Source of the DNA: Parcubacteria group bacterium GW2011_GWA2_48_9
GTDB taxonomy: Bacteria; Patescibacteriota; Patescibacteriia; UBA10025
Assembly (NCBI GenBank): GCA_001003705.1
Contig: LCPQ01000011.1
Location: forward strand, 1 to 45,086
DNA length: 45,086 nt
Reading direction: 5' to 3'
This document shows, in pieces, positions 38,495 through 45,034 of this stretch. Below the pieces are notes generated by a model, which did no database searches, had not been told where the DNA came from, and saw only the letters and a list, made by a program, of their open reading frames with translations. Every line of letters starts with the position of its first letter. The first letter of the stretch is position 1. The position numbers and the translations under genes are program-made.

Positions 38495-40116
38495 GGCTTT
38501 TGTTCTTCTTGTGAACCGCCACGGAAAAATAGCTGCGCTTTTGTTTTTTTAACCCAGCTTGTCAGTATGTGTATTTCTTCGCACTTCATAATAACGGCTA
38601 GTGCTAAGTAAACGATAATTCCCACAGCGCCTGCCCCGACTCCCTGAATGAGGACACCAACAAACCTTTGCATGTCGACCCCTATGGCGAGAAATCGCAA
38701 CATCCCCCACGACACAAGTCCCATGACGCTTGAAATAAAAAGTATTTTCAAGGTCGAGTTAGCTATGCGGTTATCATCCAGATTTCCGACTCTGTGGTGC
38801 AGCAGTATCAGCAAAAAGAGCATATTTACAATGCTCGCGACTGAAAATGCTAAGCCGAGTCCGATGACTCCCCAGATGCGAGACAGCGTCCATCCCAATA
38901 TGACATTGATCCCGACAGACAGCAGTCCGACTTTCACCGGCGTCTTCGTATCTTGCAGCGCATAGAAAGACCTCGCGAGCATAGGAATCAACGCTTGAGC
39001 AAAAAGTGAAAGAGAAAAGTAGCCGAGTGTTTGAGCGGTAAGTATCGTATCCGCCCAACCAAAATTGCCGCTTCCCAGTACCAAACGGACAATTTGCGCT
39101 CGCAAAAGCAACATCAGTACCGATACGGGTATAATGAGAAATAACACCCGTCGAAAGGCAATCGAAAAGTGTTCAACAAATTTTTTAGTGTCATTTTGTG
39201 CAAACGCTTCGGAAAAAATAGGGAAAGCTGCAATCGCAAGTGAATAACCGAATACCCCGATAGGAAAACTCTGCAGGTTATTAGCAAAGTTAAAAACAGC
39301 TACGGTACCGACGGCTAGAGTCGAACCTATGATTACGCTTATTAGCTGATCGACTTGCGCTACGGCGAGCCCGAAAGCCCGTGGAACCATTAGTTTGCCG
39401 ACCTGACGGACTCCTTCGTGCTTAAAGTCGAGAAGCGGTCTATAGCGATACCCGAGACGGAAAATAGACGGCACCTGTACCGCCATATGAATGACGGCTC
39501 CGATCACTACACCATACGCAACCCCGAGGATGCCGTATCTCCCGGATAAAACCACAATGCCAAAAATGATGCCGAGATTGTACATCACCGGAGCGAACGC
39601 GAAGCTCACATAGCGCTTAAACGATGTCAGGATACCTGTCGCAATATTACTCACACCAAAAAACACAATGGCCACAAGCATAATCCTGGTAAGCTGAATG
39701 GTCAGGTCCATGCGTGAACCGTCGAACCCCGGAGCAATCACCGGAATCAGTTGCTCGGCAAATATGAAGAAAATCCCGCCGACAGTCACGAGTCCAATAA
39801 GCAAAATGTTGAGCAAGCTGTTTGCGAGACGCCACGTCTCACTATCAGGTGAAACGGAACCATTTTTAACTAGATATCGAACAAAAACAGGAATAAACGC
39901 GGACGAAAGCGCACCGAGAACAAGAATATTAAAAATGAGATCGGGCAGTTTAAACGCCGCATAATATGCATCGAGTGTTTCACCCGCACCGTACATGGAA
40001 GCCAGCATACGATCCCTTATGAGTCCTAAGAGCCGACTCGCGACCGATGCGGTGGCGATAATAATTGCACCACCCGTGACGGTGGTGGTGATTCTCAGCC
40101 AAATCTTTTTCCACAT
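38491..40116 (-). CDS. murJ: Lipid II flippase MurJ/MviN
   Basis: ATASVASRLLGLIRDRMLASMYGAGETLDAYYAAFKLPDLIFN; LGALSSAFIPVF; polytopic; ATGA overlap with lepA. Confidence 0.95.
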   Translation of the reverse strand: MWKKIWLRITTTVTGGAIIIATASVASRLLGLIRDRMLASMYGAGETLDAYYAAFKLPDLIFNILVLGALSSAFIPVFVRYLVKNGSVSPDSETWRLANSLLNILLIGLVTVGGIFFIFAEQLIPVIAPGFDGSRMDLTIQLTRIMLVAIVFFGVSNIATGILTSFKRYVSFAFAPVMYNLGIIFGIVVLSGRYGILGVAYGVVIGAVIHMAVQVPSIFRLGYRYRPLLDFKHEGVRQVGKLMVPRAFGLAVAQVDQLISVIIGSTLAVGTVAVFNFANNLQSFPIGVFGYSLAIAAFPIFSEAFAQNDTKKFVEHFSIAFRRVLFLIIPVSVLMLLLRAQIVRLVLGSGNFGWADTILTAQTLGYFSLSLFAQALIPMLARSFYALQDTKTPVKVGLLSVGINVILGWTLSRIWGVIGLGLAFSVASIVNMLFLLILLHHRVGNLDDNRIANSTLKILFISSVMGLVSWGMLRFLAIGVDMQRFVGVLIQGVGAGAVGIIVYLALAVIMKCEEIHILTSWVKKTKAQLFFRGGSQEEQKP

Positions 40117-40126
40117 AATGCTTCAC

Positions 40127-40155
40127 ACCATACCAGATTTGGTGCATATTTGCAA
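40127..40155 (-). promoter_or_regulatory. Promoter TTGCAA-N17-TATGGT for murJ-lepA
   Basis: -35 at 40150-40155, -10 at 40127-40132, 17-nt spacer, ATG 10 nt after the -10. Confidence 0.5.
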
Positions 40156-40225
40156 GTGGGTTACAACCAAAAGATACGCTACTAAACCGAGCATGGACGT
40201 GTTCAATACCCTAACGTTGAGCACC

Positions 40226-40260
40226 CCCTGAGTCCCGCAGTAGGCGGGACGAAGGGTCTC
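40226..40260. repeat. REP-like palindromic element (CCCTGAG...GAAGGGTCTC)
   Basis: CCCTGAGTCCCGCAGTAGGCGGGACGAAGGGTCTC; internal GTCCCGC/GCGGGAC stem; shares ends with 42200-42243. Confidence 0.6.
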
Positions 40261-40368
40261 GTTGAATTACCAACGATGGGTGCTGAAAAAGTCTTGGCTG
40301 GGGTAACAAAATGAGATCCTTCACCCCTCGCATATTCGGGATCCAGGGTGGTCGCCTTCGGCGACAAA

Positions 40369-40521
40369 AAGCTGCCAGCAACGTTCGGTGGAATATCGAG
40401 CTTATCTTGGCATAGCAGCCGTTCCCTTTCGAAAACGGTGAGGAGAGAGATTTACCCCGTCGAATGACGGGGTTTGCTACACTGGACAAGTCCGAAGTGT
40501 ACCGGCGTTGGCTGGCAGCTT
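40369..40521. repeat. Branched inverted-repeat structure
   Basis: Arms AAGCTGCCAGCAACG (40369-40383) and CGTTGGCTGGCAGCTT (40506-40521) enclose hairpins ACCCCGTC-GAAT-GACGGGGT (40454-40473) and ACACTGGACAAGTCCGAAGTGT. Confidence 0.6.
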
Positions 40522-40632
40522 ATTGTCCCCGTTAGAAGTGGGCTCTAACCGGAAGTACTTCCAAGCGACTTTAGTCGCGTGAGATAGTGACATCGACCTG
40601 ACTAAAGTCAGTAAGAAAAGTTTTGAAATGGG

Positions 40633-40670
40633 GATGGGGAAACCGACAGATAAACTGCGATCTCCCCATC
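40633..40670 (-). terminator. Terminator-like hairpin downstream of the tRNA-like RNA
   Basis: GATGGGGA (40633-40640) / TCCCCATC (40663-40670); minus-strand downstream CCCATTTCAAAACTTTTC. Confidence 0.45.
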
Positions 40671-40676
40671 TATGTT

Positions 40677-40810
40677 TGGCGGAGGGTCAGGGATTTGAAC
40701 CCTGTCTTGTCCCGAAGGACAATGGTGCCAGTAACACGCCGACATGTCGGTGTGTATGGAGCACGCGCAGCCCGTATCAGTTGATGGATGATCAACCGAA
40801 TGCCCCCTCC
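40677..40810 (-). ncRNA. tRNA-like structured RNA with canonical T-arm, acceptor stem and encoded CCA
   Basis: Minus strand 5' GGAGGG(GG) ... CAGGG-TTCAAAT-CCCTG ACCCTCC G CCA 3'; no normal D-arm or anticodon arm identified; extra hairpins TTGTCC-TTCG-GGACAA and ACACCGACATGTCGGCGTGT. Confidence 0.5.
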
Positions 40811-40923
40811 GATTCATCACATGGATCATGTGTCCTCTCAAGCGGTGCGGTGATGAATGGTGAGTAAAAAGATCGCTTTCCTTCTCACTTGGCATTGTAA
40901 TCCAATCCCAATTGGGAAGGAAG

Positions 40924-40962
40924 GGGGAACGGATATATGAATACATCGCGTTTCCGTTCCCC
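40924..40962 (-). terminator. Hairpin after the pilin-like gene
   Basis: GGGGAACGGA (40924-40933) / TCCGTTCCCC (40953-40962), just beyond the stop of 40975..41355. Confidence 0.5.
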
Positions 40963-40974
40963 TTCAAAGAGCAT

Positions 40975-41355
40975 TTAACGAATCGGGATAGGCCACTTCG
41001 TATCCGTGACGTCAGTGATCATGCCGGCTTCATTGATTGTCCAGAAGTGCCGGTTGCCAAACGAGGTGAAGCGCATTGTCGCGACGAACCCGCTGTCGCT
41101 GAGATCCACATCATAATAGCATCCATCCCTCATTTTCGGCATGACCGAGAGACTGTCCGTGCTTGCGACGAAATGCCCGTGCGTGTTTTGGTAGGCCATC
41201 TCGGCGGCATGGATCTGCTGAAGAGATTCTACGGCCGTTGCTGTGTTGTTTGCGCGGACGCAGTCTGCGCTCATCGACGTGGCCACAATGATAATGATGG
41301 CACCGACCATCATTATCCCCAAGTCCCACCGGAAAAAGTTGCGTACTCCACTCAA
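40975..41355 (-). CDS. Type IV pilin/pseudopilin-like protein (start codon uncertain, TTG in ORF track)
   Basis: LGIMMVGAIIIIVATSMSADCVRANNTATAVESLQQIHAAEMAYQNTHGHFVAS, resembling a pilin N-terminal helix and alphabeta loop. Confidence 0.55.
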   Translation of the reverse strand: MSGVRNFFRWDLGIMMVGAIIIIVATSMSADCVRANNTATAVESLQQIHAAEMAYQNTHGHFVASTDSLSVMPKMRDGCYYDVDLSDSGFVATMRFTSFGNRHFWTINEAGMITDVTDTKWPIPIR

Positions 41356-41403
41356 AAAAGGTCTGAATATTACGTCCTCCTCTCCCCCGCTTCATGCAGG
41401 AGA

Positions 41404-41490
41404 TTGTGATGATAGGTTGTAAATCCTTACTGCGGTGTTTGATTTCTCTCTTTTTCAACCCATATCACATCGATACGAGCTGGAAAAGGG
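41404..41490 (-). promoter_or_regulatory. 5' leader copy A with hairpin and ATCGAT core
   Basis: TTTTTCAACCCATATCACATCGATACGAGCTGGAAAAGGGAT; homologous to 41918-42000. Confidence 0.5.
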
Positions 41491-41538
41491 ATAGGAGCCG
41501 AGTGAGTTGAACACTCGACTCCCGAAAGATCAAGACCA

Positions 41539-41892
41539 TCACCGGCTACCAGTTGGTGGGCACTTCATTTCCGTCCGCGCCGTCGACTCGCCACATTGGG
41601 ACTGCCACTTTGGGATTGAATGCAGAATAATAGCGGCGAAAATCAGCAACCCCAGCAGTACGCCAGGAATGACATTGAATACTTCTGGACCACCACGATT
41701 GACACGATCATCGCAGTAATTCAGCAGGCCAAACAGGGAGCCTATCGTCCCTCCGGTCATTAGAGTCACTGTAATGACAAATATAACCACGCCCGCTCCC
41801 TTCACAACTGTCAATAGCATGATCACCCCAACCACTAGGGCCACGATCGAAATGGCCCAGTAATGCTTCCTCAACATACGCAACATAGCCAT
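41539..41892 (-). CDS. Small hypothetical membrane protein (3 TM)
   Basis: 117 aa; ATG preceded by GGAGAGAAGAAG Shine-Dalgarno-like sequence. Confidence 0.6.
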   Translation of the reverse strand: MAMLRMLRKHYWAISIVALVVGVIMLLTVVKGAGVVIFVITVTLMTGGTIGSLFGLLNYCDDRVNRGGPEVFNVIPGVLLGLLIFAAIILHSIPKWQSQCGESTARTEMKCPPTGSR

Positions 41893-41917
41893 CTTCTTCT
41901 CTCCATTCTGTGTGGAC

Positions 41918-42000
41918 TTGTGATGGTTAATTGTGAGTTACAATTTTTGTTATCTGTTTCCCTTTTTCAGCCTACATCATCGATACAAGCTGGAAAAGAG
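41918..42000 (-). promoter_or_regulatory. 5' leader copy B with hairpin and ATCGAT core
   Basis: CTTTTTCAGCCTACATCATCGATACAAGCTGGAAAAGAGAT; homologous to 41404-41490. Confidence 0.5.
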
Positions 42001-42199
42001 ATCCGAATCCCTATTCGTACTCATCCGTGATAAACATTCGTACTTCCAACGAACAGAGCTGGAGACGATGGGCAGGCTTCGTCGAGCTGAGCTCGACCAC
42101 CTGACCGGGAAGCGGCTCGCGGTATTCCTAGTTTACACCAGGTATACTTGCGAACTGTGTGCTTCCTTTCATCCCCTCCATGTCCGTGCGTTGCGCACG

Positions 42200-42243
42200 C
42201 CCTGAGCGAAGCTCGCCGAAGGCGGGCGAAGTCGAAGGGTCTC
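42200..42243. repeat. REP-like palindromic element (CCCTGAG...GAAGGGTCTC)
   Basis: CCCTGAGCGAAGCTCGCCGAAGGCGGGCGAAGTCGAAGGGTCTC. Confidence 0.65.
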
Positions 42244-42533
42244 ATGTTTTCAAAAAGTAGATTGGAGGCCTAAGAGGTATTAGTGGGACGACATGCGTCA
42301 CAGAAGGACTCTGCCGTCCCGCTCATACTTTTCTCCTTGTGGGAGGAACTTGGAGGCGAATGATGTGAGCTTTGCCCGCCATAGGCGGACGCTTACACCG
42401 CGCGAACGCTTCATGAAGGAGTGTTCTAGATTTCTCCAGAACGCTCTTACTTCGGCGTTCAAAAGGTTGCAATCTTCGGTTTCCCGTCGACTACGACCTC
42501 CTCCCCTCCAAATTTCTCCCAAGGTCACTTCTT

Positions 42534-42770
42534 AACAAAAACGGGTGGCAGATCATCCATGACCTCAAAAGGAAGGAAATATATACATCCTTCGAAGAGA
42601 GATCACGCATAACCTGCCACCCGTAATCGTAATTAAAAAGATATTACGCTCACTTGGCTTCTGGGGTATGTGTGACTAACTATCTGTCGAGCTAAGCTCG
42701 ATTGTTACAGATAACTCTCTCCTCAAAGAATTATCGGTCAATGTGCACACCTGCCTGATGGCAGATTTAA
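42534..42770 (-). ncRNA. Candidate ~240-nt structured non-coding RNA
   Basis: Promoter at 42777-42805, several internal hairpins, and terminal ACGGGTGGCAG...CTGCCACCCGT stem followed by TTTTTGTT on the minus strand; no convincing ORF. Confidence 0.6.
42541..42624 (-). terminator. Rho-independent terminator with 11-bp perfect stem
   Basis: ACGGGTGGCAG (42541-42551) / CTGCCACCCGT (42614-42624); minus-strand downstream TTTTTGTT. Confidence 0.6.
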
Positions 42771-42776
42771 CATTGC

Positions 42777-42805
42777 ATACTATACCTAGGACCCAACTCT
42801 GTCAA
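42777..42805 (-). promoter_or_regulatory. Strong sigma-70-like promoter
   Basis: Minus strand TTGACA GAGTTGGGTCCTAGGTA TAGTAT (17-nt spacer; alternative -10 TATAGT with 15-nt spacer). Confidence 0.65.
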
Positions 42806-42910
42806 GGCGTAGCGAGTCTATTTAACTAACATAAGCCAAAAAACAGCCACTTTTATAGCTTTCAGGTTACCCAATACCCGCTTCAATGCCAAGACTAGGA
42901 ACCCTTAAAC

Positions 42911-45034
42911 TTACTTTTTTCTCGCAACTAAGCCAAAAAACTTATCTGTGGATAACTCTTCACTGATTAGAAGGTAACCAGTTTCCTGGCTCATCCTATT
43001 GTCATGCCAAATAGTTTCGTACGCTTCAGGGATGTAGAGTTTTTGAATAAAGGCAGTGTACTCAACCCCCGGCTGTTTCTGCATGAGCAGTGAATACGAT
43101 GCTAATTGGGAGAGTGTCCCCTTTTTCTCAAACTTAAATGGCAGTTGATAAACGAATGTGGCAGTGCGTGATTCGCCTGGCCCAACGTCAATCCAATTTC
43201 CGAAAACTGTCTTGCCAAATTCTTGTGTGATCCGGGTGCCCGACACTTCGTCGACAAGCAGTGTTCCTTCTAGGCCGGTAACGTCTGGATCAAGTGTCGC
43301 ATCGGATTCGGGAGTCTGAAACCTCCAGCCCGGAATGCGATCAAAACCCCTCGCCTCAAGCAGTATACTGCCTGCAGGAACATATGTACGGATGTAATCA
43401 ACATTTCTTACCCCTTGCTGGCCGTCCAGGGGGGCCCCCGTGTGGGTCCTCTGAATCGACAAAGTCTGGGTGATAGTATCGTCATCTTTAATTGTGGTTG
43501 TCAGCGATACAAACGTGTCAACAAGTCTATCAGTTTTTCCGCCGCCAATATTCGTATGGACCACCATGAGATAATCTTGGGGACTTTGGCGAACGCCTCC
43601 ATCCCACCCAAGTGTCACCACTGCACACTGGTCATTGGGGTCGGTAAATGCAAGAAGAATATTTTTGGATTCAAACGCCTGTGTGATCGAATCAACGAGT
43701 GGGAGGAACTGGTCGCCAGAAAGTGAAAAAAGTTTATTGAGCAGTATTGGAAACAATTCTGAAATAAACCGCTTAGGCTTCGTAGGATCTTGCTGCTCGC
43801 TATCTTGAGCAAGGCGGCGGACATTTTCGGATGTCACGGTGACTTCAAATGCTGGGAGTTGAATAGGGCCTGTCATGTCTAAAAAGGACTCGACAACAGA
43901 AGGAGTTAATGCGAGTACTGCGTCAACAGACGGTCCCCCGCTTCGCTCATAGAACCAGGTGACTTTTCGGGCACTAGTCGGAAAGTCTGGGAACCAATTT
44001 GCATCCTGAATATTCCAGTGGGGATTTATTAGATGCAGTGGTGTAGGAGAAATAACATTCGACCTAAGCTGCCCAGCAATATCATACGCACCGCCCTCTG
44101 GCACTTCCATGTTTTTTATTATGCCTTCATCAATATCGAGTAGTGCTAACGAACCGATGAAACCGCCCGTCGGCCGTAGCTCCGCGTTGTTTTGAAAAAG
44201 CAGCAAGATCCGCGAGGTCTCATTAACGCCGAGTAGCGCGTCCATCACTTGTTTTGCGTCAGTGAAGTCCCTGAAAAATTCCTGCAATTGCGGCAGTGAA
44301 TCGAGAATCTTCTGAAGGCGCTCACGATGTTCAGCTGGGACATATGACAGGTTCACTTGTCGCAATTCTTGTTCTGCTCGTTCGACGGCACCGCCTGCAT
44401 CCTGCAGTGATGAAGAAAACCCTTCGAGTTGGCGAACAAATGTAGCCGCGGTGACGCTGGACTGAACGGACGAAAGCGCCTCGCTGATGTATTGTCCAGC
44501 CAAGGATAAGTCGCTTCCCGCATTGAGTATCCGCTGGGCAGTATCGACATGCGGAATCACCTTGACGACCTCCTCGAGCAATGAACCCGAGCCGTTCAAC
44601 TCGTCCTGTGCGGAGCGAAATTGTTCTTCAGCTTGTTTAAACGACTGTGTCGCCGAGCTGTATTGGCTAGACGCAACAGCACGCTGGGCATCCTCGAGAT
44701 GTTGATACGCCTCTGTAGATGCGCCGAGCACACGCCCCTGGATGGTTTCAATCTTTTCAATATTACTCGCGGCGACGAGCGGTATCATGAGAGCACATGC
44801 AGCAAGGGAGAACCCAGCCAGGCTCCGTGCCCAGCCGAACGGACGTGTAACAAACTGTTCATCGACAAGCGAAGGTGGGGGGGGTTCTTTCGCAATGACT
44901 GTAGGAACGGGAGGTGCTTCGTGCTTCGGCGTGCGTACACGTTTCCACGAGAACCCAAAAAGAAAATTCCGTACTTTCCGCTGACTCATGTGTTGCTGGG
45001 CTTGTGGCTTCACGAGAGCTTTGCCTGCAGTCAT
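42911..45034 (-). CDS. DUF4012 domain-containing membrane-anchored protein
   Basis: LLLFQNNAELRPTGGFIGSLALLDIDEG, ANWFPDFPTSARKVTWFYERSGGPSVDAVLALTPSVVESFLDMTGPI; start probably ATG 45034 rather than TTG 45043. Confidence 0.88.
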   Translation of the reverse strand: MTAGKALVKPQAQQHMSQRKVRNFLFGFSWKRVRTPKHEAPPVPTVIAKEPPPPSLVDEQFVTRPFGWARSLAGFSLAACALMIPLVAASNIEKIETIQGRVLGASTEAYQHLEDAQRAVASSQYSSATQSFKQAEEQFRSAQDELNGSGSLLEEVVKVIPHVDTAQRILNAGSDLSLAGQYISEALSSVQSSVTAATFVRQLEGFSSSLQDAGGAVERAEQELRQVNLSYVPAEHRERLQKILDSLPQLQEFFRDFTDAKQVMDALLGVNETSRILLLFQNNAELRPTGGFIGSLALLDIDEGIIKNMEVPEGGAYDIAGQLRSNVISPTPLHLINPHWNIQDANWFPDFPTSARKVTWFYERSGGPSVDAVLALTPSVVESFLDMTGPIQLPAFEVTVTSENVRRLAQDSEQQDPTKPKRFISELFPILLNKLFSLSGDQFLPLVDSITQAFESKNILLAFTDPNDQCAVVTLGWDGGVRQSPQDYLMVVHTNIGGGKTDRLVDTFVSLTTTIKDDDTITQTLSIQRTHTGAPLDGQQGVRNVDYIRTYVPAGSILLEARGFDRIPGWRFQTPESDATLDPDVTGLEGTLLVDEVSGTRITQEFGKTVFGNWIDVGPGESRTATFVYQLPFKFEKKGTLSQLASYSLLMQKQPGVEYTAFIQKLYIPEAYETIWHDNRMSQETGYLLISEELSTDKFFGLVARKK

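Follow-up and report, generated by a model that had tools for sequence, protein, structure and literature searches.

The minus strand of the window (the whole 45,086-nucleotide stretch analysed) carries, downstream of a gene for a DUF4012 protein, a segment hereafter named RNA1. On sequence and comparative grounds, it is confirmed as a real structured noncoding RNA with its own promoter and intrinsic terminator that lies outside Rfam. The RNA family is well supported, and we infer its function: we read RNA1 as a conditionally terminated 5′ leader that lies next to the promoter of a longer unit of low coding content, with a probability of roughly one half. An earlier note on this DNA had proposed an independent RNA gene. 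The noncoding RNA with its own promoter and terminator was borne out, but the stand-alone reading is probably wrong, because in several genomes a second structured element (RNA2) lies 5 to 12 nt behind it and copies of RNA1 head ORF clusters. Although the leader reading is preferred, the terminated product would itself be a defined RNA of approximately 235 nt.

Promoter and fold of RNA1

RNA1 was compared with its counterpart in G001, the only other sampled genome of the source's family. The features of RNA1 in the window are as follows.

42777..42805, minus strand: promoter TTGACA-N17-TAGTAT, the sole 10/12 match in 40000–43500; the spacer of 17 and the placement are the same in relatives
42534..42771, minus strand: RNA1, read as a noncoding leader RNA, from approximately +1 to the U-tract (fold; conservation with G001 starting at the expected start site)
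42749..42766, minus strand: hairpin 1, AUCUGCC-AUCA-GGCAGGU (changes in G001 are one-sided, with pairing kept)
42715..42728, minus strand: element a, CUUUGAGGAGAGAG, Shine–Dalgarno (SD)-like without an ORF (conserved in relatives)
42710..42735, minus strand: hp2, a local hairpin around element a, GAUAAUUCUUU-GAGG-AGAGAGUUAUC (75% of cells paired)
42680..42714, minus strand: hp3, the hairpin directly 3′ of element a, UAUCUGU..ACAGAUA (z = −3.6; compensated in G001)
42541..42624, minus strand: terminator hairpin, 84 nt (stem sequence different in every relative, pairing kept)
42589..42603, minus strand: element c, AUCUCUCUUCGAAGG, within the terminator hairpin and complementary to a (duplex compared with shuffles)
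42534..42541, minus strand: U-tract UUUUUGUU (sequence)

The promoter was found as the earlier note had described it, with the −35 element TTGACA at 42805–42800, a 17-nt spacer, and the −10 element TAGTAT at 42782–42777, 105 nt past the DUF4012 stop codon. There is no second 10/12 consensus site in 40000–43500, and the RNA1 promoter is the sole site of its quality on both strands of a 9-kb stretch. In the source genome (G000) and G001, it is the only 10/12 promoter on the sense strand over 9 to 10.5 kb. RNA1 starts approximately 6 nt after the promoter, at 42771 (the G of GUUAAAUC). A whole-genome search showed one RNA1 copy in the source genome; the second match was the terminator hairpin aligned with its own complement.

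The predicted fold of RNA1 has an energy of −98.1 kcal/mol, compared with −57.7 ± 4.3 kcal/mol for shuffled sequences (z = −9.4). Hairpin 1, already recognized in the earlier note, was located at 42766–42749 and was seen only in the two genomes of the source's family (the source and G001). The second hairpin proposed there corresponds to hp3; its stem exists, but an AACAAU bulge between UAUCUGU and CGAGC had been omitted. The G001 counterpart is UAUCUAG-ACAA-CUAGAUA, in which the bulge is kept and two pairs are compensated. Similarly, the 11-bp perfect terminator stem exists but is only the base of the longer, imperfect hairpin of 84 nt (42624–42541), which is followed by TTTTTGTT. In the source genome, the terminator has a basal 16-bp stem outside element c.

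Conservation and distribution of the RNA1 family

A sequence-level homology search detected one relative only, G001, and synteny and short-pattern searches were then used. The region behind the DUF4012 gene of G001 is organized in the same way: the promoter is TTGACA-N17-TATGCT, a 64-nt 5′ domain is 91% identical, the middle is variable, and the terminator hairpin differs in sequence while sharing the architecture of the source. A covariance model of the 5′ domain gave confident matches to the two family members only and a weak match (L018), which, together with inspection of DUF4012 flanks, exposed the shared 14-nt element a (consensus CUYUGAGGAGAGAG). In each of the six genomes sampled from the order, RNA1 keeps its syntenic place downstream of DUF4012, and the check for conservation in relatives that the earlier note had suggested thus shows both position and structure to be kept. 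Five of these six genomes contain element a exactly once, in every case preceded by a promoter and shortly past DUF4012; in G004, the sixth, a variant, ACGAGGAGAGAG, occupies that place.

An 18-nt form of a matched 27 stretches in the named genome collection. All of the Patescibacteria matches are preceded, 45 to 116 nt upstream of a, by a consensus-like promoter whose spacer is 17 nt, and the matches in other phyla are without such a promoter. Together with copies from genome searches, the discovery set of the family comprises at least 21 Patescibacteria copies, with a promoter spacer of exactly 17 in 21/21 (one copy carries TTGACT). Common to these copies are the promoter, a, a hairpin just after a, and a terminator with c (a clear a:c in 19 of the 21). 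The size of RNA1 in relatives is approximately 145 to 235 nt, with that of the source at approximately 235 nt.

Of the 381 genomes of the class, 36 matched a blind pattern consisting of the promoter, N30–60, and GAGGAGAGAG, whereas none matched the reversed pattern. The new copies again have the hairpin after a and often have c. Among the 25 new copies (loci kept from the blind search), 4 are ordinary mRNAs with an ORF directly behind a, and the remaining ones have no ORF there or just a short chance frame. Across the phylum outside the class, the exact 14-mer gave 6 matches against 5 in the reversed control, and 2 of the 6 (both in family f99) carry the promoter. Viral contigs contained 98 stretches with the motif, many from one virus group, and an ordinary ORF stands behind the motif in 40 of 99 matches. 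Because the searches required a, its invariance among pattern matches carries no independent weight; independent evidence comes from the hairpins and the complement c.

We also observed a GATGTAGAGGAGAGAG-type copy in four related genomes (L139–L142, family f17). No SD-preceded ORF of at least 60 aa was found downstream in a scan of up to 2.5 kb, and the locus may be a long noncoding transcript.

Element a and its predicted pairing partners

Element a has the highest conservation of the RNA1 segments, and c is more variable. In 45 of 50 copies, no ORF of at least 25 aa starts just behind a, and in the source window there is no start codon at SD distance behind it. A leader-peptide (ribosome-mediated) attenuator, or any coding reading of a, was rejected on this ground. 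Duplex energies of a with the 16S tail (anti-SD) ranged from −11 to −18 kcal/mol; these values are uninformative because an ordinary SD-like site would give the same values.

Over the 21 discovery sequences, 75% of the hp2 cells are paired, leaving one quarter unpaired, and four pairs are changed on both sides, compared with 48 to 61% paired cells in slid controls. The covariation score of hp2 was matched by 1 of 500 shuffles. The hairpin hp3 overlaps hp2, the outer hp2 arm being common to both. Its fold z averages −1.8 for the discovery copies and −2.7 for the validation copies, with values below −1.64 in 27 of 42.

The apical segment c of the terminator is complementary to a, usually over 10 to 14 bp, and the duplex is clear in the 19 copies mentioned above. 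The a:c duplex reached a shuffle p ≤ 0.017 in 16 of 21 discovery copies and p ≤ 0.05 in 11 of 25 copies of the blind validation set; over all 50 copies, it exceeded reversed-sequence controls (Wilcoxon p ~4e-6 and 4e-7). Compensatory changes between a and c were found in G270 (CUCUG with CAGAG, U-A to C-G) and G004 (ACGAGG with CUUGU). The predicted stability of a:c is greater than that of hp2 in every discovery copy, and hp2, hp3, and a:c cannot form jointly.

Elements downstream of RNA1

Four further features follow RNA1 in the window.

42341..42520, minus strand: RNA2, a large structured element with the long closing stem GGGAGAAAUUUGGAGG/CCUCCAAGUUCCUCCC (counterpart in G001 and after the second RNA1 copy of G004)
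42044..42188, minus strand: RNA3, the structured element that follows RNA2, with a Y shape (83% identity to L005:4809-4954 of G001)
41539..41892, minus strand: ORF of 117 aa for a small membrane protein, the first one downstream (matching no family)
41493..41523, minus strand: a terminator-like hairpin just after the 117-aa ORF (sequence scan)

In the source, RNA2 starts approximately 13 nt past the U-tract and approximately 20 nt past the terminator stem; the gap behind the U-tract is 5 to 12 nt in G002, G270, and G208. Because the gap is only ~5 to 13 nt in these four genomes, RNA2 has no space for a promoter of its own. Counterparts of RNA2 were found in G001, G002, G003, G005, G142, G270, G208, G004 (second copy), and five closely related Patescibacteria contigs. 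The stems of RNA3 are compensated between the source and G001; RNA3 has no Rfam match, and no confident copy was found beyond the source's family in 286 genomes of the class.

The small downstream ORFs gave no convincing Pfam match, and in G000 and G001, there is no further consensus promoter before these co-directional ORFs. Within 2.5 kb downstream of RNA1, 88 SD-preceded ORFs are in the sense direction and 20 in the antisense direction. In both G004 and G012, RNA1 is present twice, every copy heading its own small-ORF cluster. The downstream genes are not conserved among RNA1 carriers and have no recognizable function.

Several RNA2 counterparts carry GAGGAGAGAG again. The RNA2 of G005 includes a long, near-perfect inverted repeat, AACCCCGTTAGAAATTC..GGGGTT (L041, 1701-1774), possibly an inserted hairpin element. 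In addition, the RNA2 elements of G002, G005, G003, and G012 (L040, L041, L042, and L038) have in common a GGTTTCGACTGG-type hairpin, which reads GGTTTCGACTGA in G002. This hairpin resembles GGTTTCGAC of tmRNA 5′ ends, and neither ARAGORN nor Rfam found a tmRNA there.

Proposed leader model and alternative explanations

The features examined for a leader were all observed, namely, a promoter, a conserved hairpin in the leader, and an intrinsic terminator, with a co-directional gene cluster behind them. The tight gap to RNA2, the lack of another promoter, the paired copies and clusters, and the sense bias of the ORFs therefore lead us to read RNA1 as a terminated leader. In the proposed unit, RNA1 would be followed by RNA2, by RNA3 in the source's family, and by small, mostly co-directional ORFs. 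Most transcripts would stop at the terminator, yielding a short and stable RNA, and a fraction would read through. Three partners may compete for element a: hp2, the distant c, or a trans-acting factor recognizing GAGGAGAGAG, for which the 30S subunit, Nus factors (NusB/S10), or another RNA-binding protein are candidates. Whichever partner holds a as RNA polymerase passes the terminator would determine whether transcription terminates or reads through.

Pairing of a with c cannot act as a simple antiterminator in the source because the 16-bp basal stem outside c would stay intact. As far as the geometry of the modeled pairings goes, simple antitermination by a:c may be plausible only in short-stem relatives such as G003 and G005, where c lies directly against the terminator stem. 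A more specific form of the model, which we regard as improbable, is a ribosome-sensing switch in part of the Patescibacteria: free 30S and the anti-SD-like c would compete for the gene-less SD site a and thereby decide the transcription of a long structured RNA and a small-gene cluster.

The main rival of the leader model is an independent trans-acting sRNA whose pyrimidine-rich c (UCUCC type) would bind the SD regions of targets, with a masking c until needed. The own promoter and terminator and the uniform length of ~145 to 235 nt fit such an RNA, as does the position of the anti-SD-like c in the terminator apical loop, which is a usual seed location. RNA1 also stays while the downstream genes vary, and a short RNA with such features could be a separate gene behind which the other elements lie by chance. 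By contrast, the most conserved segment is a and not c, RNA2 follows without promoter space, and the copies head gene clusters with co-directional ORFs; we thus consider an sRNA possible but less than probable. A leader resembling that of an rRNA operon seems unlikely. Here, a would be a boxA-like site (UUCUUUGA) loading NusB/S10 for processive antitermination of a long, poorly translated transcript. Many copies of a start with UUCUUUGA or CUCUUUGA, near boxA; a boxA-like TGYTCTTTGAA occurs downstream of RNA1 in L062, L063, L074, and L082, CGTTCTTTGAA occurs in L078, and TGCTCTTTGAA occurs at 40973 of the window (minus strand; boxA-like TGCTCTTTGAAGGGG) in the DUF4012–murJ intergenic region. 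A promoter, hairpins, and a boxA-like site likewise occur together in the 16S leader of the source genome. However, the UUCUUUGA part is altered in G004, G208, G270, G012, and most validation copies, whereas GAGGAGAGAG is kept, and boxA-like 8-mers also arise by chance.

The two remaining explanations have very little probability. A decoy of the CsrB/RsmZ type, titrating CsrA via GGA motifs, would account for the recurrence of AGGA in the hairpins of RNA1 and RNA2, but CsrA is missing from five of the six genomes of the order, some of them estimated to be 100% complete. This candidate was rejected, CsrA being present in one of the six genomes only and absent from both G000 and G001. That the segment encodes no functional RNA, and that a promoter and a terminator happen to coincide in an intergenic stretch, would be a natural concern for a finding that arose from the unassisted reading of a single sequence; it is refuted by the comparative evidence, with conservation, covariation, the fold (z = −9.4), and a recurrence linked to the promoter (36 of 381 genomes, none in the control) all standing against it.

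Comparison with known RNAs

Rfam 15 gave no family at the gathering score anywhere in the window, which was the search proposed in the earlier note, and ARAGORN found no tRNA or tmRNA. The failure of that note to recognize 6S RNA, tmRNA, RNase P RNA, or SRP RNA agrees with these results. At a permissive threshold, the RNA1 region gave only chance matches of the microRNA type, and relatives likewise gave chance matches. The RNA1 family is new to Rfam. 6S RNA is a long rod with a central single-stranded bubble that mimics an open promoter; RNA1 is like it in length and stand-alone appearance but is not a single rod with a central bubble. 6S RNA was rejected, as both family members have several separate hairpins and a terminator hairpin and no Rfam match. 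Riboswitches and T-box leaders have mutually exclusive hairpins before a terminator, as RNA1 does, but RNA1 has no conserved aptamer core beyond the 14 nt and the hairpins, and its copies have neither a common downstream gene nor an Rfam match.

Little is recorded about regulatory RNAs in Patescibacteria, and a literature search, with most subscription papers outside its coverage, found no paper on such an RNA in this group. With its defined promoter, its terminator, and a predicted long-range pairing, RNA1 lends itself to testing. It flags units of transcription, made up of small unknown genes, that could otherwise be read as empty intergenic space; as it mostly heads clusters of such genes, it probably controls their transcription.

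The nearest described architecture is that of the LoaP-dependent dfn and mln leaders of Bacillus, where a long operon is preceded by a leader that has its own promoter and carries a small conserved hairpin together with an intrinsic terminator (PMC12691694). The likeness is one of setting, compared at the leader level only: RNA1 shares no sequence or hairpin with the dfn leader, whose hairpin has a UNCG tetraloop, whereas the conserved part of RNA1 is CUYUGAGGAGAGAG, whose complement lies at a distance, in the terminator loop (PMC12691694). The downstream genes also differ, being small unknowns for RNA1 and biosynthetic clusters for the LoaP/dfn leaders. A second analogue is the rRNA operon leader with boxA and NusB/S10 antitermination (PMC4807359). 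It resembles RNA1 in its strong promoter, structured untranslated RNA, and boxA-like motifs in or near the unit, but no rRNA lies behind RNA1, and not all copies of a keep the boxA-like part.

The 16S rRNA leader of the source genome (L090, G000:C16:28800-32600) is approximately 440 nt long, with the promoter TTGACA-N17-TACACT, and contains a long hairpin with a U-run and the boxA-like CGCTCTTTACAG.
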